Shown piece by piece: positions 23,116-63,675 of a stretch of 64,000 nucleotides of DNA; position 1 is the stretch's first letter, and each line of letters begins with the position of its first letter. The notes under the pieces are model-generated. The model was not told where the DNA came from. It was given only the letters and a program-made list of their open reading frames with translations, and did not search any database. The stretch covers positions 62,001 through 126,000 of the forward strand of contig NZ_LR722657.1 of the NCBI RefSeq assembly GCF_902500225.1. The letters are read 5' to 3'. The translations under genes were made by a program, and so were the position numbers. Source of the DNA: Buttiauxella massiliensis. Its GTDB lineage: Bacteria; Pseudomonadota; Gammaproteobacteria; Enterobacterales; Enterobacteriaceae.

Positions 23116-24651
23116 ATGGAAGTTAATAAAAAGTCAAGCACAGTAAACAGTTTACTGACCGTATTATTTTTGGTGATGTTAATTCCTTTTATGATGGTTT
23201 CTATTTGGTCATTTGCTAATATACACAAGAATAATATAGAAGTTTTTGAAAATAATCTGACGCGATTTACACATAATACAGCAATGGAAAGTGTTAATCG
23301 CCAGTTAGAAGAGATTGATCTTGTGTTCCAGATTCTGAATGGCCAAATGACATATGCCGGCACTCAGGTTTTTATTAATGAAGAGAAAGGAATCCTTCAT
23401 TCAATTATTGCATCTATTGTTAATACATTATCTTTTTTTGATGCGGCTATTATTTCCGATGTCAAGGATAATTACCGTTCATACCCAGAAATAAAACTAG
23501 ATAGTTACATTCCAAGTAAACGCCCCTGGTATCCAAGTGTTAAAAACCAAAAAGGTATTCATTATTCTGAGCCTTATTCAGATGTCCTTGCTGAGTCTAA
23601 TGATCCTGAAGTTCGTAGTATTACCGTGAGTATGAACCTGTTTGATGAAGAACTACAAAAATATGGAAACATAGGTTTTGACTTGGATATGGATACCATG
23701 AGTTCTGCCTTGATAAATGTGGTGGTTCCTTTTGAGGGGAAGTTTTTAGTCGCCTCAAAAGATGGCACTGTCATTATGAATGCAAATATTAAAGATATTT
23801 TTCGTCAAAAAGTGCCATTAAACTGGGTTGAAAAATCTATTGACTTAGAAGGCCATTTTTACGATGAAGAAACAAAGAAGCATATTTACTACCGCTCTTT
23901 TACCGATCCATATTGGTTAGCGTTTACGATTGTTGATGACGAAAAATATAATGAATTTATTAATGATGCTCCACAATCATTGATATACATCATTTCAGTA
24001 TGCCTAATCATATATATTATTCTGCTTTGCTTATGCCGTGTATACATCAGAGAGATAGTTGGCCGTCTGTATATGGGCGTCAACGGCATTAGTTATGATG
24101 GCCAAACGCAGGATCTGGAAAAGATCTATACTAATATAAAAAATAGCCAGGTTGAACTTAAAGAAGTTCGCCGTATTTCGGGTGAAGATGCTTTAACCGG
24201 AATTGGAACCCGGCGTAAATTTGATGACCGAATGGCTGAGTTGATTGATTGCAATTCTACATTCTATCTGGCAATCCTGGATCTGGATAATTTTAAAAGT
24301 ATCAATGATACGTTTGGTCACACTGTAGGTGATTCGGTGCTTAAATATGTCAGTAAGGTTGGTAAATCTATTATCGAGCCGGACTATGATATTTATCGTT
24401 TTGGTGGGGAAGAATTGGTCGTGCTGTTCCATGGCGGGGAATACGATGTCTACTTTGACTTGCTGGAAACCTGGCGCATGACCATATGCCAGCGGCAATG
24501 GCGAGAAACCACATTGAATGTAACCTTTAGCTGTGGTATCGCGCGTTGGCAGCCAGGTGAAAGTGCACAGGATATTATAACCAAAGCAGATAAAGCGTTA
24601 TATGAGGCGAAGCACTCAGGGAAAAATGCGATTTACACTGCAAATGACTAA
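23116..24651 (+). CDS. dCache-GGDEF diguanylate cyclase (left flank)
   Basis: A 511-residue membrane protein: TM1 about 12-33, a periplasmic dCache-type sensor about 36-285 with the ligand-pocket pattern RPWY (136-139) and SEPYSD, TM2 about 288-308, a linker, and GGDEF about 345-505. The active-site loop is GGEEL (430-434), with the nucleotide-binding DLDNFKSINDTFGHTVGD. The inhibitory I-site RxxD is absent (EPDY in its place), so product inhibition may be missing. It should make cyclic-di-GMP in response to an external ligand. AT-rich compared with the backbone. Two EAL genes follow co-directionally, then the flagellar block. It resembles the protein encoded at 62150-63675. RBS weak. Confidence 0.92.
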   Translation: MEVNKKSSTVNSLLTVLFLVMLIPFMMVSIWSFANIHKNNIEVFENNLTRFTHNTAMESVNRQLEEIDLVFQILNGQMTYAGTQVFINEEKGILHSIIASIVNTLSFFDAAIISDVKDNYRSYPEIKLDSYIPSKRPWYPSVKNQKGIHYSEPYSDVLAESNDPEVRSITVSMNLFDEELQKYGNIGFDLDMDTMSSALINVVVPFEGKFLVASKDGTVIMNANIKDIFRQKVPLNWVEKSIDLEGHFYDEETKKHIYYRSFTDPYWLAFTIVDDEKYNEFINDAPQSLIYIISVCLIIYIILLCLCRVYIREIVGRLYMGVNGISYDGQTQDLEKIYTNIKNSQVELKEVRRISGEDALTGIGTRRKFDDRMAELIDCNSTFYLAILDLDNFKSINDTFGHTVGDSVLKYVSKVGKSIIEPDYDIYRFGGEELVVLFHGGEYDVYFDLLETWRMTICQRQWRETTLNVTFSCGIARWQPGESAQDIITKADKALYEAKHSGKNAIYTAND

Positions 24652-24718
24652 ATAATGAGGTGAATTATGCAGGAATAGGCCGCTTAATAATTAGTCTCAA
24701 TCATGGAAGGAAAATAAA

Positions 24719-25483
24719 ATGATGGTTGATAATGAGGATGTCAGAAAGATACTGGCTAATATTTCTCAGGGAAATCCGGAGCAGTCCCTCGTCATTTATT
24801 TGCAGCCGACTATTAACATGGTTGATGGACAATGTGTGGGCGCTGAGGCGTTAGTGCGTGGGAGAGTTGAGAGCAAGCTTGTGTTCCCGGACCGCTTCAT
24901 TGGTCTGCTGGAACAAAATAAAGATATTCGTAAGGTGGGCGTTCACGTACTGCAACGAGCCATACAGTTCAGTAAAGAACATGAGTTACATCTCCAGGAT
25001 AACTTTAGTCTCAGTAGTAATTTTTCGCCTATCGAAATCAACGACCGAAGTGTCGTTGAGAAAATTAAAAGTATTACTGATGCAAAAGGGTATCCAAGCC
25101 ACAAAGTGACCATTGAGATTACTGAAACAGATATTTCCCTTAGTTCACAAGGCCGGCAGAATGCCTGCTGGTTGCAGCAACAAGGTTTTGTGATTGCCTG
25201 GGATGATATTAGTCATCTCGATGATTTGAGCAAAAACAGCCGTGAATTTTGCAGCAATGTCATTAAGCTCGACCGTAGCCTGCTCAATGAAGAGTGTTTG
25301 CCCCTAGCACGTGAAATCATCTTGTTATGTAAGATCAAAAAATTACAGCTGGTTGCCGAGGGTGTGGAATATGCCTGGCAGCGAGATTGGTTGCTCGAAC
25401 AAGGCGTTACTGCTTGTCAGGGATACTATTATTCCCCGCCTGTAAATAAACAAGTTTTTGCACAAAAATATATCTGTGCCTGA
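24719..25483 (+). CDS. Stand-alone EAL-domain protein 1
   Basis: A 254-residue cytoplasmic EAL protein with no other domain. The motif is EALVRG (43-48), and metal/substrate residues appear at Asn101 (SNFSP), Glu133 (EITE), Asp162-Asp163, Lys183 (KLDRS), Glu214 (AEGVE) and Gln234. Loop 6, usually DDFGTG, reads DDISHLDD, which is unusual and often goes with weak or lost phosphodiesterase activity. It could be a real phosphodiesterase or a YdiV/RflP-type protein-binding regulator. RBS AAGGAAAA; two adjacent ATGs at 24719 and 24722. It lies 67 bp after the cyclase gene. Confidence 0.88.
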   Translation: MMVDNEDVRKILANISQGNPEQSLVIYLQPTINMVDGQCVGAEALVRGRVESKLVFPDRFIGLLEQNKDIRKVGVHVLQRAIQFSKEHELHLQDNFSLSSNFSPIEINDRSVVEKIKSITDAKGYPSHKVTIEITETDISLSSQGRQNACWLQQQGFVIAWDDISHLDDLSKNSREFCSNVIKLDRSLLNEECLPLAREIILLCKIKKLQLVAEGVEYAWQRDWLLEQGVTACQGYYYSPPVNKQVFAQKYICA

Positions 25484-25552
25484 GCCCATTTTTCGCGCTG
25501 AGAGTCCACGTTTGTAGTTTGTCTCTGGCCCATATTATAAAGAGGTAATAAC

Positions 25553-26317
25553 ATGAGCGACATTGGCTCAAATTTTATTCTTAGAAAGATAACCCATAGC
25601 GATTTTTCTAACGTGGTGGACTTTTACGTCCAGCCAATTTTCAACTTGTCATCTTTCCAGTGTGTCGGTGCCGAGGTGCTATTACGTGGGATGCATCGGC
25701 ACAACATCATTCAGCCCGCGCAATTTCTCCAGCAGCTTGAAGAAAATGACGGCATTATTAATGTCGGAAAATATATCATTGGTAAAGCCTTTGAGTTTTT
25801 ACAACTTGAAGTGTTACCACAAAAGCCAGATTTCTTCCTCAGCATCAATCTTGCACCACATCAACTCAATGATGAAAGCTTTTCTGAAAGCATTATTGCG
25901 CTGCAATCCGCGTACGCCATTCCGCCAAAATCTGTGATTTTTGAGATAACGCAGTCTGCTGAAGAATTAGCGGAAAGTGGTGAGAAAAATATTCAGCAAT
26001 TGCAAAATGCTGGGTTTTCTTTTGCTTGGGATGATGTGGGCAGTATTGATGATGTACAAAACAAGCTGGCCCAGTCGGCATGTGATTATATCAAATTGGA
26101 TCGCAGCTGCCTTAAGAACGGTAACAGCGAGAAAACGCCTGAACTCATTCTGGAAGCGCATAAAAATAATGCCTCCATTATTGCAGAAGGGGTTGAAACA
26201 ATGGCGCAAACGTCGATGTTGTTAAAACACAATGTTGAACTGGCTCAGGGGTATCTGTTTTCTCGCCCGCTGAAGAAAATAGATTTTGTAGAAGCTTATA
26301 TTCGTAAATCAAATTAG
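25553..26317 (+). CDS. Stand-alone EAL-domain protein 2
   Basis: A second 254-residue EAL protein, probably a paralog of the preceding one. The signature is EVLLRG (41-46), with Asn99, Glu131, Asp160-Asp161, Lys181 (KLDRS), Glu212 (AEGVE) and Gln232. The EITE motif is EITQ and loop 6 reads DDVGSIDD, so activity is doubtful. RBS AGAGGTAATAAC. It is convergent with lfhA, 36 bp apart, and is probably the last gene of the cyclase-EAL-EAL operon. Confidence 0.87.
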
Positions 26318-26353: not shown

Positions 26354-28450
26354 TCAGGCCAGCGTCCCCACAATATTCAGATCCGCTTCATCAGGCACTT
26401 CGTTATAAGACAACACATGCAAACCAGAAGCAAACAGGCGGCCATAGCGAGAAATTAACGGGCGTAATTGTGGCGTTACCAGCAGCAGTGGCGCCATACC
26501 TTGCGCTTTCATATGCTCCTGAATCATTGGCATCGTGTTTTGTAATTGCGTCAGAATATTCGGGTCAACCGGGAAGTTATCCAGCCCAACTTTTCCACTT
26601 TGCTGTGCGTGATTGAGGGCGTTGAGCAGAATGTTTTCCAGTTCATTATCTAGTGTATAAGCCTGAAGGCTGCGCTTTTCTCCGTTGATATTATGGATAA
26701 TGGCGCGGCGCAACGCGAAGCGCACATCCGAGGTTAATAGCACCGGATCTTTCGTCAATGCGGCACTTTCAAGCAGAGTCGCTGCAATGGTATTAATGTC
26801 TTTCAGTGAAATCTGCTCTAATAACAACTGGCGATAAACTCGCAGCAAAAGGCTGTAGTTAAGTTGGGCAATTAAATCCTCTGCCAACTTCGGCGCCTGC
26901 TGGCTCAAACGATGATGCAAATGCGTGATGTCGTCGTAATTAAACAATTCAGGCAAATAATTGCGCGCAATTTTATTGACGTGAGTTGCGACGACGCTTG
27001 CACAATCCACCACTTGATATCCCAGATTCAGCGCCTTCGCTTTTTGCTCCGGTAATATCCAGGTAATCGCCATGCCATAAGCGGGGTCTGTATCCAGCAC
27101 CCCATCGATTTCGCCGTACAATTCCGCCCCTGGAATTGCCATTAACTTGTCGGCATGCACTTCACCGGTCGCAATGCGAATACCGTTGATATGAACTGCG
27201 TACTGAGAGGGCTTCAGGCGGAAGTTTTCTCGAATCCGTATTTCGGGCAACAGCACGCCGCAGGTTTCAGAAATCAGCTGGCGCACGCCACGAATACGTT
27301 GAGAAAGCGGGCTACCTCGAGTGGTATCCACCAGAGTCACCAGCTTATAGCCCAGATTCAAACCAATCGGTTCCACCTGGGGAATGCTGTCCCAGTCAAT
27401 AACCGGTGGATTGTCGTGGGAAATTGCTTCATTGATGGCATCAATTTCAATGATCGGCTGTGGTGCTGCCACTTTTTTGCTCTGTTTCCATCCTGCAAAA
27501 ATCAGCAGTGCGGTAAAACTCAGGAACGCGATGTGCGGCATACCCGGCACGATAGCTAGCACGAACATGACAAACGCGGCGGTATAGAGAATGGAAGGGC
27601 GCGCCAGCAACTGGTTGTTAATTTCGGTGCTGATGTCGTTACCGTCACCGACGCGGGTCACGATAATTGCCGCAGCAGTAGAAAGCAGCAGGGAAGGGAT
27701 TTGCGCGACCAGTCCATCACCGATGGACAGCAAAACATACTGTTTGAATGAGTGGCCAACATCGAGATTATGGGCAAATACACCGATACAGATACCGCCG
27801 ATAATGTTGATTATCAGGATCATAATCCCGGCAATCGCATCGCCGCGCACAAACTTCGATGCACCATCCATTGCACCATAGAAATCTGCTTCACCGGAGA
27901 CATCCTGGCGGCGTTGTCGAGCCTGTTCCTGATTAATTAAGCCCGCGTTCAGGTCAGCATCAATCGCCATTTGCTTGCCTGGAAGCGCATCAAGCGTGAA
28001 TCGTGCGGAGACTTCGGAAATACGCTCCGCACCTTTGGTGACCACCACGAAGTTGATGATCATCAGGATCACAAACACCACGAAGCCGACGACAAAGTTA
28101 CCGCCGATAACCACCTGGCCAAAGGCTTCAATAACTTTACCTGCCGCACCTTCCCCTTCGTGACCATGTAATAACACCACACGAGTGGATGCGACATTCA
28201 GGGTCAGACGCATTAGCGTCGTAATCAGCAAAATGGTCGGGAAAATCGCAAAGTCGAGCGGGCGTTTACTGTTAACCGAAACCAGCAACACCATGACGGC
28301 CAGCACGATATTGAAGGTGAACAGAATATCGAGGATTAACGGCGACAGTGGCAGCATAACCATAGCCAGCACGCAAAGTAATAACAGAGGAATACTCACG
28401 TTACTTCGCCGAATCAGGTTGAAGTAACCCGTAAATTTACCGTTTGCCAT
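26354..28450 (-). CDS. lfhA: Lateral flagellar export gate protein LfhA (FlhA family)
   Basis: Full-length 698-residue export-gate protein of the flagellar type III secretion system. There are about eight N-terminal TM segments, the FHIPEP signature RFTLDALPGKQMAIDADLNAG around residue 140-165, and a large cytoplasmic C-terminal domain. In E. coli K-12 the corresponding fhiA is a truncated remnant of Flag-2; here it is intact. It overlaps lfhB by 14 bp and ends the leftward export operon lfiMNPQR-lfhBA. Confidence 0.95.
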   Translation of the reverse strand: MANGKFTGYFNLIRRSNVSIPLLLLCVLAMVMLPLSPLILDILFTFNIVLAVMVLLVSVNSKRPLDFAIFPTILLITTLMRLTLNVASTRVVLLHGHEGEGAAGKVIEAFGQVVIGGNFVVGFVVFVILMIINFVVVTKGAERISEVSARFTLDALPGKQMAIDADLNAGLINQEQARQRRQDVSGEADFYGAMDGASKFVRGDAIAGIMILIINIIGGICIGVFAHNLDVGHSFKQYVLLSIGDGLVAQIPSLLLSTAAAIIVTRVGDGNDISTEINNQLLARPSILYTAAFVMFVLAIVPGMPHIAFLSFTALLIFAGWKQSKKVAAPQPIIEIDAINEAISHDNPPVIDWDSIPQVEPIGLNLGYKLVTLVDTTRGSPLSQRIRGVRQLISETCGVLLPEIRIRENFRLKPSQYAVHINGIRIATGEVHADKLMAIPGAELYGEIDGVLDTDPAYGMAITWILPEQKAKALNLGYQVVDCASVVATHVNKIARNYLPELFNYDDITHLHHRLSQQAPKLAEDLIAQLNYSLLLRVYRQLLLEQISLKDINTIAATLLESAALTKDPVLLTSDVRFALRRAIIHNINGEKRSLQAYTLDNELENILLNALNHAQQSGKVGLDNFPVDPNILTQLQNTMPMIQEHMKAQGMAPLLLVTPQLRPLISRYGRLFASGLHVLSYNEVPDEADLNIVGTLA

Positions 28451-29570
28451 CTGTTTTCATTACCTCTTTTGGGATGTCCATATGCTTGTTCAATTGCGGC
28501 TTTATATCGCTGCGTCCATTGCGCCACTCTTTAATCTGCATCACGTAGGTGAGCACATGTGCAATGGCGCGAAATAGCTGGGAAGGAATTTGCTGGTTTA
28601 CGCGCGTGCTGTAATAAATGGCACGCGCGAGCGGTGGAAACTCAACGATTTCAATCTGGTTTTGAGTGGCGACTTCTCGAATATACAGGGCGATATCGTC
28701 CATCCCTTTGGCGAGAATATAAGGGGCCTGCGCCTTATTTGGGTCATATTTCAACGCGACGGCATAGTGGGTCGGGTTGGTTAAAATCACGTCAGCGGTC
28801 GGCACGACTTTATTAATCTGACCCTGTGCCATTTGCCGTTGCAACTGGCGAATTCGCCCTTTTACCTGTGGGTTGCCGTCGTTATTTTTATGTTCATCGC
28901 GCACTTCTTGTTTGGTCATGCGCATCTTTTTCATAAACATGAAAATGGATAATGGCACATCAATAAATGCGAAGATGATAATCACGCCGATCAACCACCA
29001 GAATGACTGGCGCAGAATCAGCAAACCTTCTTCAATTCCCTGGCGCAACCAGATGCGCTGCAAGCCCAGCAATTCAGGCAAATTATCCTGAATCAGCGAC
29101 CATAAAACAGCCATCAACACGCTGCATTTCAGCAGCATTTTCAGCACGTCAACATAGTGGCTGGATGAAAACATACGTTTCAGACCACTGATTGGACTTA
29201 TCTTTTTGAAGTCTGGAAGCAGTTTATTAGGTGTGAAAATCCAGCCACCGGGTACCAGCGTTGAAATGATGCAAACCAGCGGAATGGGTACTAACGTCAG
29301 AACGAATTTCAATAGCAACCAGACATGGTGCATCAGGAACTGTTCGAGAGCTGCATCGTCGTTGAGTTTTCCCGCCATGGTCGCAACGGAAAAAAAGGAG
29401 TCCTGAACCAGCTGGCGGTAGAACGGGAAAAAGATCATCAGAGTGATAAGCGATGTGACCAGACCTGCGGCCATCGTCAGATCTTTTGAACGCGCAATAT
29501 CCCCTTTTTCACGCGCTTTACGAAGCTTACCGTGGGTAGCCTTTTCGCTTTTATCTCCCGAACCTGACAT
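28437..29570 (-). CDS. lfhB: Lateral flagellar export switch protein LfhB (FlhB family)
   Basis: A 377-residue inner-membrane protein that switches export specificity from rod/hook to filament substrates. Four TM segments are followed by a cytoplasmic domain with the autocleavage site NPTH in ADVILTNPTHYAVAL. Start and stop codons interlock with lfiR (TGATG). It works with the hook-length ruler, presumably LafE. Confidence 0.95.
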   Translation of the reverse strand: MSGSGDKSEKATHGKLRKAREKGDIARSKDLTMAAGLVTSLITLMIFFPFYRQLVQDSFFSVATMAGKLNDDAALEQFLMHHVWLLLKFVLTLVPIPLVCIISTLVPGGWIFTPNKLLPDFKKISPISGLKRMFSSSHYVDVLKMLLKCSVLMAVLWSLIQDNLPELLGLQRIWLRQGIEEGLLILRQSFWWLIGVIIIFAFIDVPLSIFMFMKKMRMTKQEVRDEHKNNDGNPQVKGRIRQLQRQMAQGQINKVVPTADVILTNPTHYAVALKYDPNKAQAPYILAKGMDDIALYIREVATQNQIEIVEFPPLARAIYYSTRVNQQIPSQLFRAIAHVLTYVMQIKEWRNGRSDIKPQLNKHMDIPKEVMKTDGKR

Positions 29571-30343
29571 CAGTAAACCCGTACCGAATCAAGTTTGCTG
29601 AGAATGTAATTCGTCAGACTGAGATAGTGCTCAGGGATATTACTGACCATCAATGCAAGGCACAGCAGGCCAAACAGCATGCTGATAGGAAATCCTAACG
29701 AAAACAGGTTCAGCGTCGGTGAAATACGGTTCAGTAAGCCGAACGAGCCTTGCACCATTAGCATCACAAAACCGGTCGGTAGCGCGATTAATACGGATGA
29801 GGAAACAAGCCAGCCGAGACTTTGCACCAGGGTTTGCAGCGACAACGAAGTGATTGCTTGCCCTGGCGGCCAATAGGTAAAGCTTTTATAGATGATGGTT
29901 ACGAGCAGCAGGTGCCCGTCCATGGTGAAAAAAAGCAGCACGCTGTAAACAAAAATTATTTGTGAAATCACGGTGGTGGAGTTGCCGTTGCTGGGGTCAT
30001 TCATTACTGCCATACCGAGACCCATATTCATTGAAAGAATATGCCCGGCGGTTTGCAGAGCCACAAAAACCAACTGCAACATGGCACCAAACAGAAAGCC
30101 CCACAGGATCTGCTCACCAATCAGCACAACGCTGCGCATTGAAAGCAATTCAGTTAGCACCACAACTTGATGCAGCATGGGGGAAATGACCGCCGTAAGC
30201 GCAATAGCGAGGCCAATTTTGATGCGCCGGGAAATGGATCGTTGATCAAATACCGGGCTGAAATGGATAAACGACAAAATGCGCACAAACGGCAGAAAAG
30301 CGGCCATCAACGGGGCGATCAGTGTCGGAATGTCAAAGCCCAT
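29570..30343 (-). CDS. lfiR: Lateral flagellar export protein LfiR (FliR family)
   Basis: A 257-residue hydrophobic export-gate subunit with about six TM segments and the family-typical N-terminus (LMAAFLPFVRILSFIHFSPVF) and GMAVMNDPSNGNSTTVISQ. It forms the FliPQR channel. Its stop overlaps the lfhB start by one base; the gap to lfiQ is 6 bp. Confidence 0.95.
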   Translation of the reverse strand: MGFDIPTLIAPLMAAFLPFVRILSFIHFSPVFDQRSISRRIKIGLAIALTAVISPMLHQVVVLTELLSMRSVVLIGEQILWGFLFGAMLQLVFVALQTAGHILSMNMGLGMAVMNDPSNGNSTTVISQIIFVYSVLLFFTMDGHLLLVTIIYKSFTYWPPGQAITSLSLQTLVQSLGWLVSSSVLIALPTGFVMLMVQGSFGLLNRISPTLNLFSLGFPISMLFGLLCLALMVSNIPEHYLSLTNYILSKLDSVRVY

Positions 30344-30349
30344 AATGAT

Positions 30350-30619
30350 TTAGCCAACCAACCGTGCAGCCTGATGGAAAATTTCAATGGTGAAATCAGA
30401 CAGTTTAATCAGCATCCATTTCCCCGCTACCACCAGAACCAGCAATGTAACAACCAGGCGCGGCAAAAAGCTGAGGGTTTGTTCGTTAATCTGCGTGGTC
30501 GCCTGGAAGATACTGACCACCAGGCCAACGAGGAGGCTGGGAACAATCGCTACCACAGAAATAATCAGCACCAGCAAGATGGCACCGGACATAATCTCCC
30601 CGGCGGTGTCCATGGTCAT
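30350..30619 (-). CDS. lfiQ: Lateral flagellar export protein LfiQ (FliQ family)
   Basis: An 89-residue two-TM export-gate subunit with SIFQATTQINEQTLSFLPRL between the segments. The ATG at 30619 is chosen because it overlaps the lfiP stop (TGATG) and gives the standard 89 residues; ATGs at 30622 and 30613 are possible alternatives, and upstream codons in this frame lie inside lfiP. Confidence 0.94.
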   Translation of the reverse strand: MTMDTAGEIMSGAILLVLIISVVAIVPSLLVGLVVSIFQATTQINEQTLSFLPRLVVTLLVLVVAGKWMLIKLSDFTIEIFHQAARLVG

Positions 30620-31380
30620 CATCCTGAAACCCCTTGTACGCTGGTGGTCAGCGTGCTGACAATCAAGTTCCAGCCGTCGCAAAGCACAAACAGCATCAGC
30701 TTAAATGGCAAGGAAACAATCAGCGGTGACAGCATCATCATCCCCATCGCCATCAAAATACTGGCGACAATCAGGTCGATAATCAGGAATGGGATGTAAA
30801 TCATAAAGCCAATCTGGAAGGCAGTTTTCAGCTCGCTCAGCACGAAAGCCGGTACCACGATACTGAGATCCATTTCCATCGGATCGCCTTTCTCACCCGC
30901 AATCGACATGATTTGCGCCATCGAGGTTTTACTGGTTTGCGCCAGCATATATTTCTTAAGCGGTAGCTCGGCGGTGGTCAGTGCCTCTTTAAGCGAAATA
31001 GCATCATTCTGATAGGGAACAATGGCCTGGTCGTAAACTGTGGTCCAAACCGGGCGCATTACCAGCATGGTTAATGCGAGCGCGATCCCCGTCAGAATTT
31101 TATTCGGTGGGCTTTGTTGTAAGCCAAGTGCCTGGCGCAAAATCGCCAGCACAATAATAAAGCGTGTGAAGCAGGTCATCATCAGCACCATGATCGGCAA
31201 AAAGCCGAGCAGGGTCATCAGAATCAGAATTTCAACCTTAACGCTGTAATCCTGGCCGCTGCCGTTGCTGGTGGTGCTGAGCAGGGTAATATCCCCGTTC
31301 GCGGCTAACAGGTGAGGCGAAATAAGCAGCCCGGTTAACAATAATAAACCCAGGCCAGTGCTGCGAAAATTGCGACTCAT
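30619..31380 (-). CDS. lfiP: Lateral flagellar export protein LfiP (FliP family)
   Basis: A 253-residue export-gate subunit with a cleavable signal peptide (...LLISPHLLAANG). FliP signatures are RFIIVLAILRQALGLQQSPPNKILTG and FVLSELKTAFQIGFMIYIPFLIIDLIVASILMAMGMMML. It overlaps lfiN by 4 bp and lfiQ by 1 bp. Confidence 0.96.
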   Translation of the reverse strand: MSRNFRSTGLGLLLLTGLLISPHLLAANGDITLLSTTSNGSGQDYSVKVEILILMTLLGFLPIMVLMMTCFTRFIIVLAILRQALGLQQSPPNKILTGIALALTMLVMRPVWTTVYDQAIVPYQNDAISLKEALTTAELPLKKYMLAQTSKTSMAQIMSIAGEKGDPMEMDLSIVVPAFVLSELKTAFQIGFMIYIPFLIIDLIVASILMAMGMMMLSPLIVSLPFKLMLFVLCDGWNLIVSTLTTSVQGVSG

Positions 31381-34537: not shown

Positions 34538-34546
34538 GGTTTTGAT

Positions 34547-54004: not shown

Positions 54005-54033
54005 AAAAACACCGCCGCGGCGGTGTTTTTTTT
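54005..54033 (+). terminator. Strong terminator of lafA
   Basis: A perfect stem AAAACACCGCC/GGCGGTGTTTT with loop GC, and an eight-base T run. It isolates the flagellin transcript from lafB. Confidence 0.95.
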
Positions 54034-54104
54034 CCGCTTCCGCTAAGGCGGAAGGTGATTTTCCCATCTGTTTATAACCTACTGAATTTAATTAATATAA
54101 AAGT

Positions 54105-54120
54105 TGGCATAACTATTGCT
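54105..54120 (+). promoter_or_regulatory. Sigma54 promoter of lafB-U
   Basis: TGGCAT-AACTA-TTGCT differs from the -24/-12 consensus at one base (C to T at the end of the -24 box) and keeps the invariant GG-N10-GC. It lies 42 bp before lafB. It would place the cap, chaperones, sigma28 LafS and stator under LafK. Confidence 0.82.
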
Positions 54121-54161
54121 ATTACTAGCCTCAGGACATAGCAGTATGCCAGGGAGGAAGG

Positions 54162-55466: not shown

Positions 55467-55480
55467 GGAAGGAGAAGGAC

Positions 55481-55876
55481 ATGTACGGAAACACCCAAGA
55501 AGGATATGGCGAGTATTACCAGTCTGATATGGCGGCACAGGTGGCTGCGGCAACGCCACATCAACTGGTGCTGATGCTCTTTAACGGCTTAACCGATGAG
55601 CTGGTGCGCGCCAAAAGCCATATCGAAGCAAAACGCTACGAGCGCAAAGCCCAAAGCATCAATAAATGCATCGATATTCTCAATGCCTTGACCAGCGCAC
55701 TGGACTACGAGAAAGGCGGTGAGCTGGCAAAGAACCTCGCGAATTTGTACGACTACTGCGTTTATCGCTTATACGACGGTAGCAATAATCTCTCTGTTTC
55801 TGCCATTGAAGAAGTTGAAACCATCCTCGGCGAATTACGCGAAGGCTGGGAAGAAATGGGTAAACGCCATGGATGA
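55481..55876 (+). CDS. lafC: Lateral flagellin chaperone LafC (FliS family)
   Basis: A 131-residue FliS protein, with the family motifs AATPHQLVLMLFNGLTDELVRAK and KCIDILNALTSALDYEKGGELAKNLANLYDYCVYRL. It should bind the LafA C-terminus and block premature polymerisation. It overlaps lafD by 8 bp. Confidence 0.95.
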   Translation: MYGNTQEGYGEYYQSDMAAQVAAATPHQLVLMLFNGLTDELVRAKSHIEAKRYERKAQSINKCIDILNALTSALDYEKGGELAKNLANLYDYCVYRLYDGSNNLSVSAIEEVETILGELREGWEEMGKRHG

Positions 55877-56192
55877 TTTGCAATTAATTGACTGGCAGAC
55901 GCGAGCACTTGCGGCAGCAGGTAAGCGCCAGGATTGGGAAAAAATCCAGCAGCTCGATAGCGATATCGCAGCCCTGCTGTGCAGTTTGCATGGCCGTGAA
56001 ATTAGCCAACATAAACGCGAAGCGCTAAACAAACTCCAGCAAGTTCATCAGCAGGTGCACCAATTAGTGCGCCAGAAACGCGATGAACTGAGTAAAGAAA
56101 TGACCCAGCAGCGCAATCAGCGCGAAGGGGCACTTTCTTACGCACAGTTCATGGATAGAGAGTTGGATGAGGGGCTGGTCGTCAATGAGTGA
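55869..56192 (+). CDS. lafD: Lateral cap chaperone LafD (FliT-like)
   Basis: A 107-residue, charged, helical protein in the FliT position after fliS. The ATG at 55869 (MDDLQLIDWQTRAL) overlaps the lafC stop; the frame is open further upstream but within lafC. FliT-like assignment rests mainly on size, helicity and place. Confidence 0.85.
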   Translation: MDDLQLIDWQTRALAAAGKRQDWEKIQQLDSDIAALLCSLHGREISQHKREALNKLQQVHQQVHQLVRQKRDELSKEMTQQRNQREGALSYAQFMDRELDEGLVVNE

Positions 56193-57240
56193 TTTTCTCG
56201 CATACACGGCATCGGACTCGAGCGGCTTACTCCCGCAGACTGCACACCCGCAGACGTTGCTGGCTCCGGCAACAGCTGCTTTGTTGGAAGTCGATGAGAC
56301 GCAGGACGTTAATGCTGGCGAGATGTTATTTGAAGAACTGCTGTTAGCCACCAGTTCGGTTTCCATTGCCACGGACGAAGAAGTGGTTCAGCCGCAAGAA
56401 GCCAGCACGCTGGATGAGGTGCTGGCTGAATTACCGGATGAGCAAGTGGAGCAGATGGCTCAGCAATTTTTGGCGTCTTTGGTCAACCGCGAAGTGCCGA
56501 TGCTGATGACTACGACAGCAGCCGTATTGCCAGTCGCCGCAGAACAACCAGTTGCTCGCCCGCTGAATGTCCAAATACAAACGGATAAAGCCGAGCCTGC
56601 TGCAATAGAAATGCAGCCTACGGCACACACGGCTGATGCACAAAACCGGCATGTTCGAGTTGCTTCGACGCAGCCTGCAGAAATTGTTTTGCCTAAAAAA
56701 GCCTTCTCCCCCGCAACGGCAGAAACGCTGCGCCTGGCGGGGCTGAATACGGCACCTGCGGCCAATATTCCGGTTATTTCAGCTGGGCAACCGCAGGCCC
56801 AGGTTAATGCACCGATGCGTGCTGATGGCAGTGGCCAGGCTTTGTCTGCGCAACTGCAACATGCGTTAGGCGAGCGCCTGAATCTGCAAATTAATAACCA
56901 GATTCAGCACGCGACAATTCGTCTTGATCCGCCTGACATGGGGCGCATCGAGATTGTGGTGCAGATTGAAGCCGGGAAAATTCAGGTGCAGATCAACGCC
57001 GGGCAAAGCGACGTTTATCGGGCACTACAGCAGGTGAGTAACGACCTGCGCCAGGCGTTGACGGAACAGCACTTTGTTGATGTTGACGTCCGTTTGTCGA
57101 ACCAGAACCAGCAGCAAAACCCAGGCCAACGTCAGCACCATGCTGGTCGTGAAAATGAACTCATTCTGGCAAATGAACAACCCGATACCGCGCGCGAGAC
57201 CCGAACGCGGGACGATAAATCTATTTTGATGACTGTATAA
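56185..57240 (+). CDS. lafE: Lateral hook-length control protein LafE (FliK family)
   Basis: A 351-residue ruler protein. The N-terminal two thirds is low-complexity and Ala/Pro/Gln-rich. The C-terminal FliK domain has LNLQINNQIQHATIRLDPPDMGRIEI and the VQINAGQSDVYRALQQVSNDLRQAL end. It would trigger the LfhB switch. ATG 56185 follows GAGGGG and overlaps the lafD stop. Confidence 0.92.
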   Translation: MSDFLAYTASDSSGLLPQTAHPQTLLAPATAALLEVDETQDVNAGEMLFEELLLATSSVSIATDEEVVQPQEASTLDEVLAELPDEQVEQMAQQFLASLVNREVPMLMTTTAAVLPVAAEQPVARPLNVQIQTDKAEPAAIEMQPTAHTADAQNRHVRVASTQPAEIVLPKKAFSPATAETLRLAGLNTAPAANIPVISAGQPQAQVNAPMRADGSGQALSAQLQHALGERLNLQINNQIQHATIRLDPPDMGRIEIVVQIEAGKIQVQINAGQSDVYRALQQVSNDLRQALTEQHFVDVDVRLSNQNQQQNPGQRQHHAGRENELILANEQPDTARETRTRDDKSILMTV

Positions 57241-57256
57241 GAAACTGAATAACTCT

Positions 57257-57760
57257 ATGACGATTAAAACTTTTTCGATGGGGCTAGCAATCGCCATTAT
57301 CTCTTCTGTGCTGGCTGCGGTATTGGCAGTTATGGGGACTCAACACTTTGCTAAATCGGCTGTCGCCGACGAAATCGAAGTGCCAGCGACCCACTCAGTC
57401 TGGCAAAAATTCACCCATCTATTTTCTTCGGCAGAAGAGGAAACTCAGGTTCTGTTCGTTGAAATCAACAACATCGTCATCACCCTGAAAAGCGACGGTG
57501 GCAGAGAGCGCTACATGCTTCTCGAGCTGGCATTAACCGCGGCAACAGAAGATGCGGTTAAACAAACTGAAATGATGATCCCTGCTATTCGCGGGGCAAC
57601 GGTCTCTCTATTAACCGAAAAAGATTACAGCTTGGTTCGCACATTAACTGTGAAAGACATACACGATGAATTGATGAGTGCTTATAAAGAACGCTTTAAG
57701 CAACTCAATTCGCGGATGCCATTTAATGACGTGATTATCAGCAAAATGTTGTTGCAGTAG
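57257..57760 (+). CDS. lafF: Lateral stator-associated protein LafF (FliL family)
   Basis: A 167-residue inner-membrane protein with one N-terminal TM segment (about 6-27) and a periplasmic FliL domain (VEINNIVITLKSDGGRERYMLLELALTAATEDAVK). It should assist stator function. It lies 16 bp after lafE. Confidence 0.88.
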   Translation: MTIKTFSMGLAIAIISSVLAAVLAVMGTQHFAKSAVADEIEVPATHSVWQKFTHLFSSAEEETQVLFVEINNIVITLKSDGGRERYMLLELALTAATEDAVKQTEMMIPAIRGATVSLLTEKDYSLVRTLTVKDIHDELMSAYKERFKQLNSRMPFNDVIISKMLLQ

Positions 57761-57780
57761 AAACAGGGAAGGAACGCACA

Positions 57781-58479
57781 ATGGAATGCAGCACCTTTAT
57801 CTCCAGTGAAACGCTAACGCCTGCGGAAGAGTCGCGTTACGTTTCCCAATATCTGCCTCTGGTAAAGCGGGTCGTGAAACAGCTTTCATGGCAGGCGCAG
57901 AGCGTTATCGACAGCGAAGATATGCAGCAAATTGCCCTGATGGGTTTACTCAGTTCTTTGCGCCGCTACGGCAGGCCTGATGAGCAGTTTGCCGCTTTTG
58001 CGGCTCAGCGAGTACGCGGCGCGATACTTGATGAATTACGTGTGCTGGACTGGCGGCCTCGCCGGTTGCGCCAGAAAGCGCACAAGATTAATGACGCTAT
58101 CAGAGAACTCAGCCGCAAGCTTGGTAAAGATGTTGATTTTGAAGAGATAAAGCAACATCTGGAGATTACTCCTGAAGAGTATCAGGAGTACTTATTGCTC
58201 GACAGCGCCAGCGCTATTCATAGCCTGGATGAGATGCTTTCCGCGGATTCCGACCTCAGCTTCAACAGCCGTAACCTAGAAGATGAAATCATTATCAGCG
58301 ATTCATTGCGTGCGGCTCTGGCCGGGCTTGATGAGCGGGAACAACTGATTCTGAGTCTCTATTACCAACACGAAATGAGCCTGAAAGAAATCGCGCTGGT
58401 TCTGGATCTCACTGAGGCCAGGATTTGCCAGCTGAATAAGAAAATCACGCAAAAAATTAAAGATGCCGTAGCGCAGTGA
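57781..58479 (+). CDS. lafS: Lateral flagellar sigma28 factor LafS (FliA family)
   Basis: A 232-residue sigma factor with region 2 (YLPLVKRVVKQL, DSEDMQQIALMGLLSSLRRY, FAAQRVRGAILDELRVLDWRPR) and region 4 (GLDEREQLILSLYYQHEMSLKEIALVLDLTEARICQLNKKI region). It should direct lafA and lfgMN transcription and be held by LfgM. It is encoded inside the sigma54-driven lafB operon. Confidence 0.96.
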   Translation: MECSTFISSETLTPAEESRYVSQYLPLVKRVVKQLSWQAQSVIDSEDMQQIALMGLLSSLRRYGRPDEQFAAFAAQRVRGAILDELRVLDWRPRRLRQKAHKINDAIRELSRKLGKDVDFEEIKQHLEITPEEYQEYLLLDSASAIHSLDEMLSADSDLSFNSRNLEDEIIISDSLRAALAGLDEREQLILSLYYQHEMSLKEIALVLDLTEARICQLNKKITQKIKDAVAQ

Positions 58480-58486
58480 GACCTTG

Positions 58487-59350
58487 ATGCAAAAATTACT
58501 CGGAATAGTGATCATTTTTGGCTGTGTAGTGGGCGGCTTTATTGAATCTGGTGGACGGCTGGCCGCATTTTGGGTGCCGGGCGAGCTGATGATTATCATT
58601 GGCGCGGGGATCGGGGCCATGGTGCTCGCCAACCCGAAACCGGTGCTTATCGAAATGTGGCGGCAGGTCAAAAGCGCCATGCGTAAAAACAGTTACACCG
58701 CAGACTACCAACGCCAGTTGCTGATGTTGCTCTATGAACTGTTGGAACTGGTACAGGATGGCGGGTTAAAGGTGCTTGATGAACATATCGAATCTCCTGA
58801 AAAAAGTGACCTTTTTCAAAAGTATCCGTTAGTTCTGGAAGACCATGCGCTGATCACTTTTATCTCCGATAACTTCCGGTTAATGGCGATGGGCAAGATC
58901 AACGAGCATGAGCTGGAAGGCATTCTGGAGCAAGAGCTTGGCGCTATGGAAGAAGAGCTGCTCAGACCCTCTCGCTCAATGCAGCGCACCGCTGAAGCGA
59001 TGCCTGGATTTGGTATCTGCGCGGCGGTACTTGGAATTATCATCACCATGCAATCCATCGACGGCTCAATTGCTGTGGTTGGCGTAAAAGTTGCGGCCGC
59101 GCTGGTGGGGACGTTCCTCGGCGTATTTATCTGTTACTGCCTGCTTGATCCATTAGCTAACGCCATGGAACAGCAGACTAAAAAACAGATGGCTGCCCTT
59201 GAATGTGTGCGCACGGTACTAGTGAACCAGGTCGCCGGGAAACCGACACTGCTGGCTGTGGATGCCGGGCGTAAAATGCTGCCAATGGATACTAAACCAA
59301 CGTTTGCCACCCTTGATGGTTGGGTTAATGAACTGATTGGTGAAGGTTGA
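58487..59350 (+). CDS. lafT: Lateral motor stator LafT (MotA family)
   Basis: A 287-residue stator subunit with four TM segments and the MotA motif AEAMPGFGICAAVLGIIITM. ATG 58487 is chosen; TTG 58484 would add one residue. The stop overlaps the lafU start by 4 bp. The length and motifs resemble proton-type MotA. Confidence 0.95.
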   Translation: MQKLLGIVIIFGCVVGGFIESGGRLAAFWVPGELMIIIGAGIGAMVLANPKPVLIEMWRQVKSAMRKNSYTADYQRQLLMLLYELLELVQDGGLKVLDEHIESPEKSDLFQKYPLVLEDHALITFISDNFRLMAMGKINEHELEGILEQELGAMEEELLRPSRSMQRTAEAMPGFGICAAVLGIIITMQSIDGSIAVVGVKVAAALVGTFLGVFICYCLLDPLANAMEQQTKKQMAALECVRTVLVNQVAGKPTLLAVDAGRKMLPMDTKPTFATLDGWVNELIGEG

Positions 59351-60276
59351 TGCGTAGCAAGAAACAAGGCCACACCACGATAATCAAACGAGCTTCGCGT
59401 CGTGAACATCACGCACCACATGGTGGGGCGTGGAAAGTGGCGTTTGCCGACTTTACGCTCGCCATGATGGCCCTGTTTATGGTGCTGTGGATCATGAGTT
59501 CAGTCACCGAAGAAGAGCGAAAAGAGGTAGTGGCGACCCTTACTGGGGAATCCATTTTTGATGGCGTGGCGATGTCGCCGTTATCTTCCGGCGGCAAAGC
59601 GAAGAATGGCCCCAATATGATTATTCCTGGCAAACAGGGCGGCGCGCCGACAACCGAAGATTTTACCAAACAGATCGAGCAGATGGATCTGGCAAGCAAA
59701 GCTACGGAATCGCTGGAAGATGTGAATAAACGATCACAACAGGAAATGATCGAGCTCGCGCGGGTGATTACGGAAATCACCAAAGCCTTTGACGCGCAAT
59801 CAAACCTCGAAATGGAGATCATTCCACAGGGATTACGCATTCTGATTCAGGATGATCAGAAGCGGGAAATGTTCCAGCGCAGCAGTGCGATTCTGACACC
59901 CTTCTTCCAGCGTTTACTGACTCAATTAGCACCGGTATTTAATAAAATTGATAACAAAGTGATCATCACCGGACATACGGACTCTTCTATGTACCGGGAT
60001 CAGACGCGTTATAACAACTGGAACTTGTCTGGTGACCGCGCGTTGGCCGCACGAATAGCGTTAGAGCAGGGCGGCATGGCGGGGGACAAAGTGATTCAGG
60101 TGAATGCGATGGCGGACAAAATGCTGCTTAAACCGGACCAACCACTAAGTGCCGCAAACCGCCGCATTGAAATCATGGTGCTTACCCACGCGGCTGCGGA
60201 CTCGCTTTATCAATTCTTTGGCACGCCAGGCGTGGATGTAGTGCAACCTGCGAGTAGTGCTAAAACCGCGCAATAA
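59347..60276 (+). CDS. lafU: Lateral motor stator LafU (MotB family)
   Basis: A 309-residue stator anchor. The single TM carries the ion-binding Asp in VAFADFTLAMMALFMVLWIMS, followed by a plug region and an OmpA-like peptidoglycan-binding domain (VIITGHTDSS...NWNLSGDRALAARIAL). E. coli K-12 keeps only the remnant mbhA. Last gene of the lafBCDEFSTU set. Confidence 0.95.
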   Translation: MMRSKKQGHTTIIKRASRREHHAPHGGAWKVAFADFTLAMMALFMVLWIMSSVTEEERKEVVATLTGESIFDGVAMSPLSSGGKAKNGPNMIIPGKQGGAPTTEDFTKQIEQMDLASKATESLEDVNKRSQQEMIELARVITEITKAFDAQSNLEMEIIPQGLRILIQDDQKREMFQRSSAILTPFFQRLLTQLAPVFNKIDNKVIITGHTDSSMYRDQTRYNNWNLSGDRALAARIALEQGGMAGDKVIQVNAMADKMLLKPDQPLSAANRRIEIMVLTHAAADSLYQFFGTPGVDVVQPASSAKTAQ

Positions 60277-60327: not shown

Positions 60328-61473
60328 ATGTCGGTTATTGCCCAGTATTATTACCGTCAACAAGCAAAAAACACCCCTTCGCCCGTGGAAAAGCCTGTTG
60401 TTTCAGCTTCTACGGCAAATACCGACCCCGCTAAAAGTGTAAGCACGGCGTCTACCAGTACGGCATCTTTTCAGCAGGCGCTTTCGGCCTCACAAAAACT
60501 ACAAGCGGAAAACGTAAAAGCGGCGGCAGCTCCGCCACGATCTGAAACGACTCGGCCAGTTCAAACAGCCAGCACCACGCCGACGCTTGAACAACTGGTG
60601 AAATTCGCCAAAAGCCAGGGGTGGAGTGAAAAGCAAATCTCCCTCATGAAGCGGTTGTCGGTGCGTAAAAATAGCCGCACCGGTAAACCCTGGAATGAAA
60701 GCGGGCAAACCGCTACACGCACAGCTTCGCGTGAAGTACGGGAGAAAGGCTTGTTGGCAAGGGCTGCAGATGCCGGGAACATTCGTGGAATTCGTAATAA
60801 TAATCCCGGTAACCTCGAAGCCAGTGAGCTGTTCGAATGGCAGGGGCAAACGGGCAATGACGGGCGTTTCGCTACATTTTCATCCCCGGAACACGGCATT
60901 CGGGCGCTAGGGATGAACCTGCTTTCGTATCATCGCCGTGGGCTGGACACCATCAGCAAGGTTATTTCACGATGGGCACCCGCTTCAGACAATAACGACA
61001 CTTCCAGCTATATCAGCAAAGTAAGCCAGGCGCTGGGGGTTTCTCCTCATCAACGGCTCGACCTTACCGCTCCGTCGGTATTAAGTGCGTTAAGCAAAGC
61101 AATTATTCGCCATGAAAATGGCACCATCCCGTTTGATGAAAACGTGATTAGTAGTGGGATATTTTCAGCATTGGGGCTTGAGAACCTTCCCGGAACAAAA
61201 CAGACGCCTCAAACCATTGCTCAGGCGATACCGGGGAAGTCAGTTTTCCCTATGCAGGCAAGTTTAATGAACCCAATGGAATTAAAAGCGTTACGTCAGT
61301 CATTAAGTAAACAGCTGCAAGCAGTAAAAATTGTTATTCAGGCGGGTGGAGAGGCGACTAATATTCCCAGCAAAGCGGAGCTCGTTGCAGCATGGGGATA
61401 TACAGAAGGATCTCGTCGCTTCGATGAGCTTAAAATGGTCTCTGCATCACATTCTCGTAAAGTGGGTGCCTAA
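60328..61473 (+). CDS. Protein with phage-like NNPGN domain
   Basis: A 381-residue protein not part of the Flag-2 clusters I know. Residues 1-90 are a low-complexity Ser/Thr/Ala/Gln-rich region with no signal peptide. Residues 151-265 form a conserved domain: GIRNNNPGN (154-162), WQGQTG (171-176), the FATFSSPEHGIRAL stretch, and RWAP (215-218) with a following YISKVSQALGV. This pattern is familiar from phage virion and wall-associated proteins. Cell-wall cleavage is a possibility, not shown. RBS AGAGGAACTC. Because LfgJ lacks a muramidase domain, this protein could supply that function after export through the flagellar secretion system. Confidence 0.75.
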   Translation: MSVIAQYYYRQQAKNTPSPVEKPVVSASTANTDPAKSVSTASTSTASFQQALSASQKLQAENVKAAAAPPRSETTRPVQTASTTPTLEQLVKFAKSQGWSEKQISLMKRLSVRKNSRTGKPWNESGQTATRTASREVREKGLLARAADAGNIRGIRNNNPGNLEASELFEWQGQTGNDGRFATFSSPEHGIRALGMNLLSYHRRGLDTISKVISRWAPASDNNDTSSYISKVSQALGVSPHQRLDLTAPSVLSALSKAIIRHENGTIPFDENVISSGIFSALGLENLPGTKQTPQTIAQAIPGKSVFPMQASLMNPMELKALRQSLSKQLQAVKIVIQAGGEATNIPSKAELVAAWGYTEGSRRFDELKMVSASHSRKVGA

Positions 61474-61831: not shown

Positions 61832-61860
61832 CTTCTCCCTCACATTTAATTTTACATTCA

Positions 61861-61893
61861 AGCCTCGATTTATTATCGGGGCTTTGTTTTTTT
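61861..61893 (+). terminator. Rho-independent terminator
   Basis: AGCCTCGAT pairs with ATCGGGGCT (one G-T pair, 5-base loop) and is followed by TTGTTTTTTTT. It ends transcription coming from the lafU/NNPGN side before the second cyclase gene. The rest of the 318-bp gap to 62149 is AT-rich with nothing recognised. Confidence 0.85.
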
Positions 61894-62149
61894 TATTTAC
61901 TGACAATAATAAATTATATCGGGGTAGCTAATACATTAGCATTGCTTGCTATTTTAATGAGTTATACGATAATGGCTGCCCGAATAACTGGGTATTTATA
62001 ATGTCTGGGAGTGTTAAAAAGTGATTGATTTGTTATTGGTTTAGAATGCAAAAGTTAAATTATAGACATCAAGTCTATTTAATGGTTATTATGTTGTGAT
62101 GAGATGAAAGTATACATCATCTTTGCATAACAACTAAGAATTCCTCATC

Positions 62150-63675
62150 ATGTTAACATTAACTTCAAAACGCGCTCTGGCAATAACAATTTCTGTTGTA
62201 CTTGCACCGTTTTTATTAATTTCTATATATTCATTTTTTTACATTCGCATCAATACAGAAAATAATTTTGATGAAACCATGTTCAGGTTTACATCAAACA
62301 GCGCCCATAACTGCATTGAAAACCCAATACGAAAAATCAATGTCCTGTTTAGCTCCCTTTCGGGCATGATAGAGAAACATGACATAATCGAGTATATCTC
62401 ACCTAATCACTCTGAGTTGAATCTGCTCATTCCATCCTTAGTTAATGCCAATGAAATGCTGGCGAGTGTCCTCATTTCTGACAATCAAGATAACTACAAA
62501 ATTTATCCGCCTTTTGAATTAGAAAATTATAAACCAAGCTCACGCCCTTGGTATCACAGAGATGGCTTTAAAGATCAAGTGTTCTACTCTGAACCTTATA
62601 TTTCGGCAAAAAAACCAACTCTGAACAAAAGAAAGAAAAATCGATAAGCGTGAGTATGAATCTTTTTGATAAACATTCTGAATTTATCGGTAATATTGCC
62701 TTTGATCTGAATTTTATTGCTATAAGTAATAATTTGCAGGGGCTTATCGTTCCCTATAATGGTCGCTTCAAGGTTGCAGCGATGGATGGCTCTGTGATTA
62801 TGTCCTCAAATACTAAGGATATTTTCACCCGGACTGTACCGGCTTCATGGATTAGTGAAGCAAAGGACTCTACGGGTTATTTCAGGGATGAGATAAATAA
62901 AAAGATTGTTTTTTACCAGACGTATCAAAACCCTGACTGGATTGCCTTCACCTCAGTTGATATGAAAGAGTACAATAAATTATTAAATGACTCCTATATT
63001 GTCCTGGTGTACGTCATTCTAGCCTGTATATTCTGCTACTTTATTATGGCCTTGATTTGCAGAACATACTTTAAACAGTGGATAGATACACTGTATAAAA
63101 ATATTAATGGTGATGATGCAAACGATTTACCACATAACTTCGCTGGGCTTTGCCAGGGGCTGGCTAAAAAAAATGAAACTCTGAAAGAGGCAGTACAAGC
63201 TGCAAGTACCGACACCCTTACGAAAATAGGTTCCCGCCGCAGGTTTGAAGAGGACTCCCTCAACCTGGTTCGTTCAAATACTCCTTTTCATCTGGCGATG
63301 ATTGATTTAGATAACTTTAAAAAAATCAATGATACCTATGGTCACCCGACAGGGGATTTTGTTTTACAACATGTCAGTAAGGTTGGGCTTGAACGTTTAG
63401 GTGGTACACATTCTATTTATCGCTTTGGCGGTGAAGAGCTGGTCGCCATCTTTTGCGGAATCACATTTGCTGAATGCTATGAAATTGTTGATAGCTGGCG
63501 TTATACCGTCAGCCGCAGAAAATGGCGTGAGCAAAATCTAACGGTTACATTTAGCTGTGGAATAGCCAGTTCCGGGGATGGTAAAAAACTGGATGAAATT
63601 ATTGCTTCAGCAGATAAGTCTTTATATGAAGCGAAGGAATCAGGAAAGAACTGTATTTATCCACCGTTAAGTTGA
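62150..63675 (+). pseudogene. dCache-GGDEF diguanylate cyclase, split by a -1 frameshift at A7
   Basis: Two abutting frames (62150-62647 and about 62614-63675) together make one 508-residue protein with the same layout as the cyclase at 23116: TM1, dCache with RPWY and SEPY, TM2, and GGDEF with GGEEL. The break is at A7 (62608-62614); in zero frame GCA AAA AAA is a canonical -1 slippery heptamer. A -1 slip there gives SAKKTNSEQKKEKSISVSMNLF, which lines up with the intact protein. It may be a plain mutation, a phase-variable tract, or programmed slippage. No I-site RxxD is seen. The GGDEF half could also be translated alone from ATG 62650. Confidence 0.82.
62608..62614 (+). other. A7 slippery tract in the second cyclase gene
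   Basis: Seven A residues read as gcA AAA AAA in the upstream frame. One more A would restore the full-length cyclase. The tract is the point where homology to the left-flank cyclase passes from one frame to the other. Confidence 0.75.

Follow-up and report, generated by a model that had tools for sequence, protein, structure and literature searches.

A predicted cyclic-di-GMP gene cassette is linked to the Flag-2 lateral flagellar locus in Buttiauxella

Introduction

PdeH (YhjH) is a stand-alone EAL phosphodiesterase of flagella. Other described systems join cyclic-di-GMP (c-di-GMP) or EAL proteins to flagellar control: in Vibrio parahaemolyticus, ScrABC lowers c-di-GMP, and deletion of scrABC raises it and represses laf (PMC8630636, in excerpt); in Shewanella putrefaciens, MotL slows the lateral motors at high c-di-GMP (PMC8203827, in excerpt); and RflP (formerly YdiV) is a degenerate EAL protein that acts on FlhDC (PMC5930307, in excerpt). 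The trigger of the Flag-2 flagella in enterobacteria is largely unknown, and the function of Flag-2 has been termed largely uncharacterised (PMC6993521, in excerpt). Here, we describe a 64,000-nucleotide stretch of the Buttiauxella massiliensis genome (hereafter the window; its genome, of 4.88 Mb, is G000), in which a Flag-2 locus is adjoined, just outside lfhA, by the gene of a diguanylate cyclase (DGC_L) and the genes of two stand-alone EAL proteins (EAL1 and EAL2). Throughout, G codes stand for genomes and L codes for stretches that were read.

We find that this three-gene cassette is truly linked to Flag-2 in Buttiauxella, and consider it reasonably likely that it is a c-di-GMP control cassette belonging to Flag-2, with a second cyclase gene, at the opposite edge of the locus, being a bystander. 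The main texts of two Flag-2 surveys (PMC6993521 and PMC7526173) contain no mention of GGDEF, EAL, diguanylate, c-di-GMP or phosphodiesterase; within the portions available, PMC2266911 handles Flag-2 and c-di-GMP separately, and PMC13268207 names EAL genes without such a cassette. In the open-access literature on Flag-2 together with diguanylate cyclases or c-di-GMP, no title points to one. The cassette offers three genes through which to ask whether c-di-GMP decides the use of the second flagella.

Results

The cassette accompanies Flag-2 in Buttiauxella

The Flag-2 locus of the window (26354-60276) runs from lfhA, on the minus strand, to lafU in the published locus order (PMC6993521, in excerpt) and holds the clusters lfhA to lfiJ, lfgN to lfgL and lafW to lafU, together with LafK and LafA; no broken core gene was seen within it. 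The genes of DGC_L, EAL1 and EAL2 lie on the plus strand, convergent with lfhA across a gap of 36 bases. Their coordinates and Pfam matches confirm what had been proposed from the letters of the window, namely that a dCache-GGDEF gene followed by two stand-alone EAL genes stands beside Flag-2.

We compared 12 Buttiauxella genomes (G000-G011), and sampled 392 genomes, six of these 12 included, for family-wide searches. LafK was present at an identity of at least 88% in four of the 12 (G000, G007, G011 and G005), the next match in any genome being at 49%, save for partial-length matches at 50-51%. Orthologues of DGC_L (66-100% identity) were found in these same four genomes and in none of the other eight, the further matches at E<=1e-60 among the 12 being paralogues (37-43% identity). 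The order DGC_L-EAL1-EAL2-lfhA, with its convergent arrangement, was identical in all four. Across the family sample, EAL1 was matched at E<=1e-50 in 3 of the 392 genomes, all of them LafK-positive Buttiauxella; a fourth copy is present in G011, which lies outside the sample.

The association holds at two chromosomal sites. Three of the four blocks, including that of the window, adjoin genes of the alaE-nrd region; the G005 block, comprising the cassette, Flag-2 and a 381-aa gene described below, is found at another site, reaching from the tRNA-Ser/yccA side to agp/wrbA/putA (gene names around this block were assigned by recognition), and no Flag-2 is present at the RIO-kinase/rhodanese site of G005. 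Despite the two sites, ~100 bases upstream of DGC_L are conserved in the four species. This leader had no match in Rfam, and a second copy of its motif was not found within the window. In G004, Flag-2 has been deleted, leaving 92 leader bases identical to those of the window and several lfhA fragments, and no pieces of the three cassette genes were found there, save for a cross-match of the right cyclase (see below); the cassette thus appears to have been lost jointly with Flag-2. A tree built from a single backbone gene requires at least three changes of Flag-2, and the cassette follows in every independent pair.

Predicted activities and selection

DGC_L, of 511 aa, matches the Pfam GGDEF model (E 9.6e-30; 103.9 bits against a cut-off of 23.8), and its dCache_1 match (E 2.1e-10) reaches 41 bits, below the cut-off of 45. 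With a GGDEF match above cut-off and an active site of the GG[DE]E[FL] type, conserved as GGEEL in all four orthologues, it is predicted to act as a diguanylate cyclase; by eye, no RxxD inhibitory site was seen at the usual spacing. EAL1 and EAL2 (254 aa each) carry an EAL domain according to Pfam, and their catalytic positions were assigned by what we take to be the RocR numbering. All nine of the catalytic-region positions compared are kept in the four EAL1 orthologues, the loop after the DD pair deviating from DFG. In the four EAL2 orthologues, the Glu of the ExTE motif is replaced by Q or R and the other eight positions are kept. EAL1 is hence a predicted active phosphodiesterase, and EAL2 is an EAL protein with an altered catalytic region.

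Compared with the nearest species, the dN/dS ratios of DGC_L, EAL1 and EAL2 were 0.106, 0.092 and 0.064, respectively, as opposed to 0.029 for lfhA and 0.045 for lafK. The genes of a similar cassette in a second genus (see below) gave 0.071-0.100 where dS was unsaturated (four sequences per gene, out of nine genomes). The cassette genes are under purifying selection, yet their rate of evolution exceeds that of the flagellar core genes with which they were compared.

Related cassettes and EAL lineages in other genera

We scanned the Flag-2 flanks of 38 LafK-positive genomes outside Buttiauxella with GGDEF and EAL profiles of our own, using lfhA-side stretches for all 38 (one of 102 bases only) and lafU-side stretches for 35. 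A usable lfhA flank was available in 31 genomes, three of which hold GGDEF/EAL genes within ~13 kb (G154, G144 and G078); lafU was seen in 23 genomes (with flanks from less than 1 kb upward), and such genes were found in three (G154, G152 and G020). G252, G165 and G014 match LafK, yet neither lfhA nor lafU was seen in them, making a LafK match alone an imperfect marker of Flag-2 outside Buttiauxella.

We considered, and set aside, a general excess of GGDEF/EAL genes near the ends of Flag-2 across the family. The genome of the window has 27 GGDEF and 30 EAL matches, i.e., about one such gene per 108 kb, and by this rough yardstick the number at Flag-2 ends is near chance. A lone GGDEF or EAL gene near an end of Flag-2 is therefore weak evidence, a cyclase-EAL-EAL row is stronger evidence than a single gene, and the signal comes from which genes are present and in what order, rather than from how many there are.

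Such a row was found in a second genus, where a dCache-GGDEF gene and two EAL genes stand just outside lfhA (G154). The cyclase of this cassette was matched at E<=1e-90 (66-100% identity) in 9 of 61 genomes of the genus (the LafK search covered fewer than all 61), and all nine copies lie 1.5-2.4 kb beyond lfhA, followed by two EAL genes, at an ssb-uvrA site. A like cassette is therefore linked to Flag-2 in the second genus. Each full cassette, in both genera, seems to combine one canonical-looking EAL with one altered EAL; by eye, the second EAL of G154 has a membrane-like N-terminal part. In a third genus (G152), a pair of EAL genes stands 2.6 kb beyond lafU, and no cyclase was recognised within the DNA that was read there; in a fourth (G144), only an EAL of the second type is present, 1.6 kb from lfhA. 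No match was found in Escherichia coli genomes, either to the cassette of the window in a near-match search or to the EAL pair of the second genus in a distant-match search, and plasmid records gave matches to the cassette proteins only below 60% identity.

To place the EAL proteins, we built a tree of 61 domains, which includes 26 other EALs of the window's genome (its 30 matches minus EAL1, EAL2 and two fragments), and a second tree, to which seven plasmid EALs from best-match lists were added and from which five divergent EALs of the window's genome and six near-duplicate second-genus rows were left out. One clade (support 100/100, and 100/99 with the plasmid EALs) unites EAL1 and EAL2 with the first EAL of the second genus (nine rows), a G152 EAL and one G339 EAL; nested inside it is a sub-clade of EAL2 with those second-genus and G152 proteins (99/95, and 98/96 with the plasmid EALs). 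The second EAL in the second-genus cassettes clusters with the G144 protein and the second protein of G152 (100/99). The EAL2 lineage thus has members next to Flag-2 in three genera, at sites and ends that differ. Members of the EAL1 and EAL2 clades may also exist away from Flag-2, the reference set being small, and the G339 EAL is one of them.

The ExTE Glu is replaced in every row of the EAL2 lineage that was compared: by D in all nine second-genus rows, in which the second Asp of the DD pair is also replaced (by G in eight and S in one), and by Q in the G152 EAL, whose second Asp is G. These replacements, found in a protein under purifying selection, raise the alternative that EAL2 acts in the manner of RflP, controlling a flagellar activator, possibly LafK, by contact, with or without c-di-GMP. 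RflP itself provides the precedent (PMC5930307, in excerpt). The other catalytic residues compared are kept, however, which would be odd if c-di-GMP were no longer handled, and the likeness is one of description, the sequences compared being those of the EAL rows above rather than of RflP. We regard this alternative as rather unlikely, although EAL2 is a possible new kind of flagellar regulator.

Does the cassette serve Flag-2 or ride with it?

Several points weigh against a cassette that belongs to Flag-2. The occurrence in four of four Flag-2 genomes versus none of eight others comes from related genomes, and with only three independent pairs, just one of which lies on branches that are well supported, significance is out of reach. 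In the other genera, GGDEF/EAL genes are missing from most Flag-2 flanks that could be read, their number being near the rough chance expectation. The cassette of the second genus points away from lfhA, whereas that of Buttiauxella converges on it, and the second-genus cyclase sits on a long separate branch, of a lineage unlike that of Buttiauxella. G339, which is not among the LafK-positive genomes of the 392-genome search, has a left-type cyclase (49% identity, in two pieces) and an EAL gene at an umuDC site (L155 10181-12537); this pair is perhaps a leftover cassette. Upstream of DGC_L, there is no close match to a sigma-54 or sigma-28 consensus site. Because the sigma-54-like sites that precede lfgB (41369) and lafB (54105) are missing there, the cassette is probably expressed independently of LafK. 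Finally, of 21 proteins of the Flag-2 block scanned with Pfam, to which the search was confined, none has a PilZ domain that would point to an effector.

Some of these points would fit a passenger instead, i.e., a cassette that hitch-hikes at the edge of Flag-2 and regulates something else, such as general biofilm formation: beyond the two genera most readable flanks lack the cassette, cassette and Flag-2 do not have a promoter type in common, Flag-2 loci have been described as hotspots of cargo genes (PMC6993521, in excerpt), and stand-alone EAL genes adjoin fimbriae on plasmids too (L249). Such a passenger would have to account for a three-gene order under purifying selection in two genera, for the recurrence of one EAL lineage next to Flag-2, at varying sites and ends, in three genera, and for the apparent loss of the cassette together with Flag-2 in G004. 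We thus hold this explanation to be possible but doubtful, and favour a control cassette belonging to Flag-2.

The right-hand cyclase is a bystander

The sequence-only reading had placed two similar cyclases at the two outer edges of Flag-2, as a bracket carried along with the flagella. Both edges of the window do hold cyclases with like domains, and the listed motifs are present in both; the right gene, however, is split by frame into two open reading frames (ORFs), the first piece carrying RPWY and SEPY and the second carrying VSMNLFD and the GGDEF motifs. Its nearest relative, an intact copy of 512 aa in G004 (L083; 94% identity), adjoins the RIO-kinase gene at the same backbone site in a genome without Flag-2, and no right-cyclase gene was found at this site in the other seven Buttiauxella that lack Flag-2. 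In G007, where Flag-2 occupies the same site as in the window, the 381-aa gene and a small ORF are followed by the RIO-kinase gene with no cyclase between, and no right cyclase stands beside Flag-2 in G005; the right edge of G011 is readable for ~1 kb only, up to a contig end. The next relatives (65-67% identity) lie elsewhere, on a large G005 contig, a 124-kb G005 contig and another G007 contig. When the independent-pair test on the backbone-gene tree was applied to the right cyclase, 0.7 of pairings showed no difference, 0.2 the same direction as Flag-2 and 0.1 the opposite direction.

The left and right cyclases are paralogues, with 43% identity over left residues 161-508 and 33% over residues 12-157. 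Two trees, one of 42 GGDEF domains and the other of 29 long proteins (in which the intact G004 relative stood in for the right cyclase), place them in different supported groups, and hence not as each other's closest kin. A recent duplication of one cyclase onto both ends was also considered, and is ruled out by the GGDEF trees. A third paralogue of the dCache-GGDEF type is present elsewhere in the window's genome (G000:C23; 38% identity).

The right cyclase is thus a bystander of the backbone site, broken in the window and outside the linked unit, which corrects the original picture: a single Flag-2 control circuit made of both outer cyclases is highly improbable, and the bracket does not survive the comparison with G004, G007 and G005. 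Carriage with Flag-2 held for the left cyclase (in the same 4 of 12 genomes, beside lfhA in all four and at two sites) and failed for the right, whose position is accidental by the refuting condition of the sequence-only reading. The expectation that cyclase-EAL-EAL rows would recur at Flag-2 in other genera was borne out by the second genus (9/9), and not by most readable flanks.

The Flag-2 locus and its surroundings

The features of the window are collected in Table 1. Most single Flag-2 gene names were taken from the published order (PMC6993521, in excerpt); lfgM was named by position alone (ORF 40216-40491) and lfiQ by Pfam alone, without cross-species alignment. Where Flag-2 genes were compared with those of three other species, the alignments cover the whole gene or most of it, and flagellar Pfam matches include export, switch, FliD, FliS, FliK, FliL, MotA, MotB, FlgN and sigma-factor models. 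Models of LafA, FlgA and FlgI also match in the window, LafA with 343.6 bits against a cut-off of 365, and no Pfam family was matched by lafW or the unnamed ORF adjoining lafZ. The flagellin gene lafA is present in one copy in the window and in several tandem copies in G005 (L066-L067).

Table 1. Features of the window, with positions counted from its first nucleotide
Feature	Position	Strand	Basis
Cassette leader	22918..23115	+	Cross-species conservation
DGC_L, dCache-GGDEF diguanylate cyclase (predicted)	23116..24651	+	Pfam; orthologues in 4/12 Buttiauxella
EAL1, stand-alone EAL, predicted active phosphodiesterase	24719..25483	+	Pfam; residue table
EAL2, stand-alone EAL, ExTE Glu replaced	25553..26317	+	Pfam; residue table; trees
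lfhAB-lfiRQPNM	26354..32640	-	Pfam and alignment with three other species (lfiQ Pfam only)
LafK, sigma-54-type activator of Flag-2	33098..34129	+	Protein matches/orthologues
lfiEFGHIJ, lfgNMABCDEFGHIJKL	34163..50199	mixed (lfgN, lfgM, lfgA minus)	Models, alignment
Cluster 3: lafW, unnamed ORF, lafZ (minus), lafA flagellin, lafBCD, lafE (FliK), lafF (FliL), lafS, lafT (MotA), lafU (MotB)	50205..60276	mixed	Models, alignment
381-aa protein, phage endolysin-type C-terminal half	60328..61473	+	PHROGs; no Pfam match
Right cyclase, first piece	62150..62647	+	165 aa; broken gene
Right cyclase, second piece with GGDEF	62650..63675	+	341 aa; different frame

The gene after lafU encodes a 381-aa protein, the C-terminal half of which resembles phage endolysins and tape-measure proteins in PHROGs. 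It is present at full length in the same 4 of 12 Buttiauxella as Flag-2, with partial matches in G010 and G004. Since the lfgJ product of the window has the rod-binding part only, the 381-aa protein may be the flagellum's wall-cutting enzyme. In three Flag-2 loci of other genera, an ORF that by eye looks like NlpC/P60 directly follows lafU (L168 14541-15335, L171 7773-8630 and L162 5877-6641), and the position after lafU is possibly a slot for wall-cutting enzymes. Past the 381-aa gene, a small ORF of 85-91 aa that starts with MKIDS is found in the window (~61556-61831), G007 and G011; a similar ORF stands near the lfhA end in G144 (L112 8052-8309).

The interval between the rhodanese gene (window 22393-22917) and the RIO-kinase gene (just past 63700) is an insertion hotspot in Buttiauxella. 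It is occupied by Flag-2 in G000 and G007, measures less than 1 kb in G002, G005 and G010, and holds 3-9 kb of other DNA in G001, G003, G006, G008 and G009. On the side of the RIO-kinase gene that faces away from this interval, G002 and G005 carry an EAL domain (L216 2507-3121 and L222 3947-4561) that is 33-34% identical to the second EAL of the second genus. The DNA past the window carries a further GGDEF gene (364 aa; L001 3809-4903) and genes that by eye resemble a type I secretion system (L001 11209-14982).

Discussion

From the linkage and domain content described above, c-di-GMP control of the lateral flagella by the cassette is plausible; the enzyme activities, the signal, the effector and the effect on Flag-2 are what we infer. 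DGC_L would sense a small molecule or a surface condition via its periplasmic dCache domain and make c-di-GMP, which EAL1 would remove. EAL2, being mainly a receptor or a weak enzyme, would relay the local c-di-GMP state to the Flag-2 machinery, the local balance between DGC_L and EAL1 being sensed by EAL2 or by LafK, such that low c-di-GMP would favour motility by lateral flagella and high c-di-GMP attachment. LafK was considered as a c-di-GMP effector like FleQ, with which it aligns well: of the Arg-Asn pair after Walker A, which we take to have a role in FleQ, the Arg is kept and Thr replaces the Asn. As a tentative extension, Flag-2 in several Enterobacteriaceae genera might come with a dedicated switch, made up of a dCache cyclase, an active phosphodiesterase and a receptor or LafK contact regulator of the EAL2 lineage, and kept across sites, cyclase lineages and orientations.

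Among the known systems, PdeH resembles EAL1 and EAL2 in being a stand-alone EAL protein of ~255 aa. With NF008617, which we take to be the PdeH model, EAL2 reaches only 26.5 of the 190 bits set as cut-off, and EAL1 is without a listed match. The likeness to RflP lies in an altered EAL protein near flagellar control, the difference being that EAL2 retains most catalytic residues. The parallel with MotL is a c-di-GMP gene that borders a lateral flagellar cluster and is specific to that system; MotL, however, is a PilZ receptor, and the 21 Flag-2-block proteins scanned hold no protein of the MotL/YcgR kind, as judged by the PilZ domain. The cargo genes reported for Flag-2 (PMC6993521, in excerpt) concern this very locus, likewise with the idea that additional genes travel with it, but the hotspots described there, VR1 and VR2, are inside the locus and not outside lfhA.

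ScrC is a single GGDEF-EAL protein run by ScrA and ScrB, whereas the cassette comprises three separate proteins, none of which has both domains, and employs a dCache sensor; it consists of three genes only, the search for ScrA and ScrB having covered these and not the rest of the genome. What it has in common with ScrABC is a c-di-GMP module tied to lateral flagella and to the choice between swarming and attachment, a tie that is displayed here by the position of the genes beside Flag-2.

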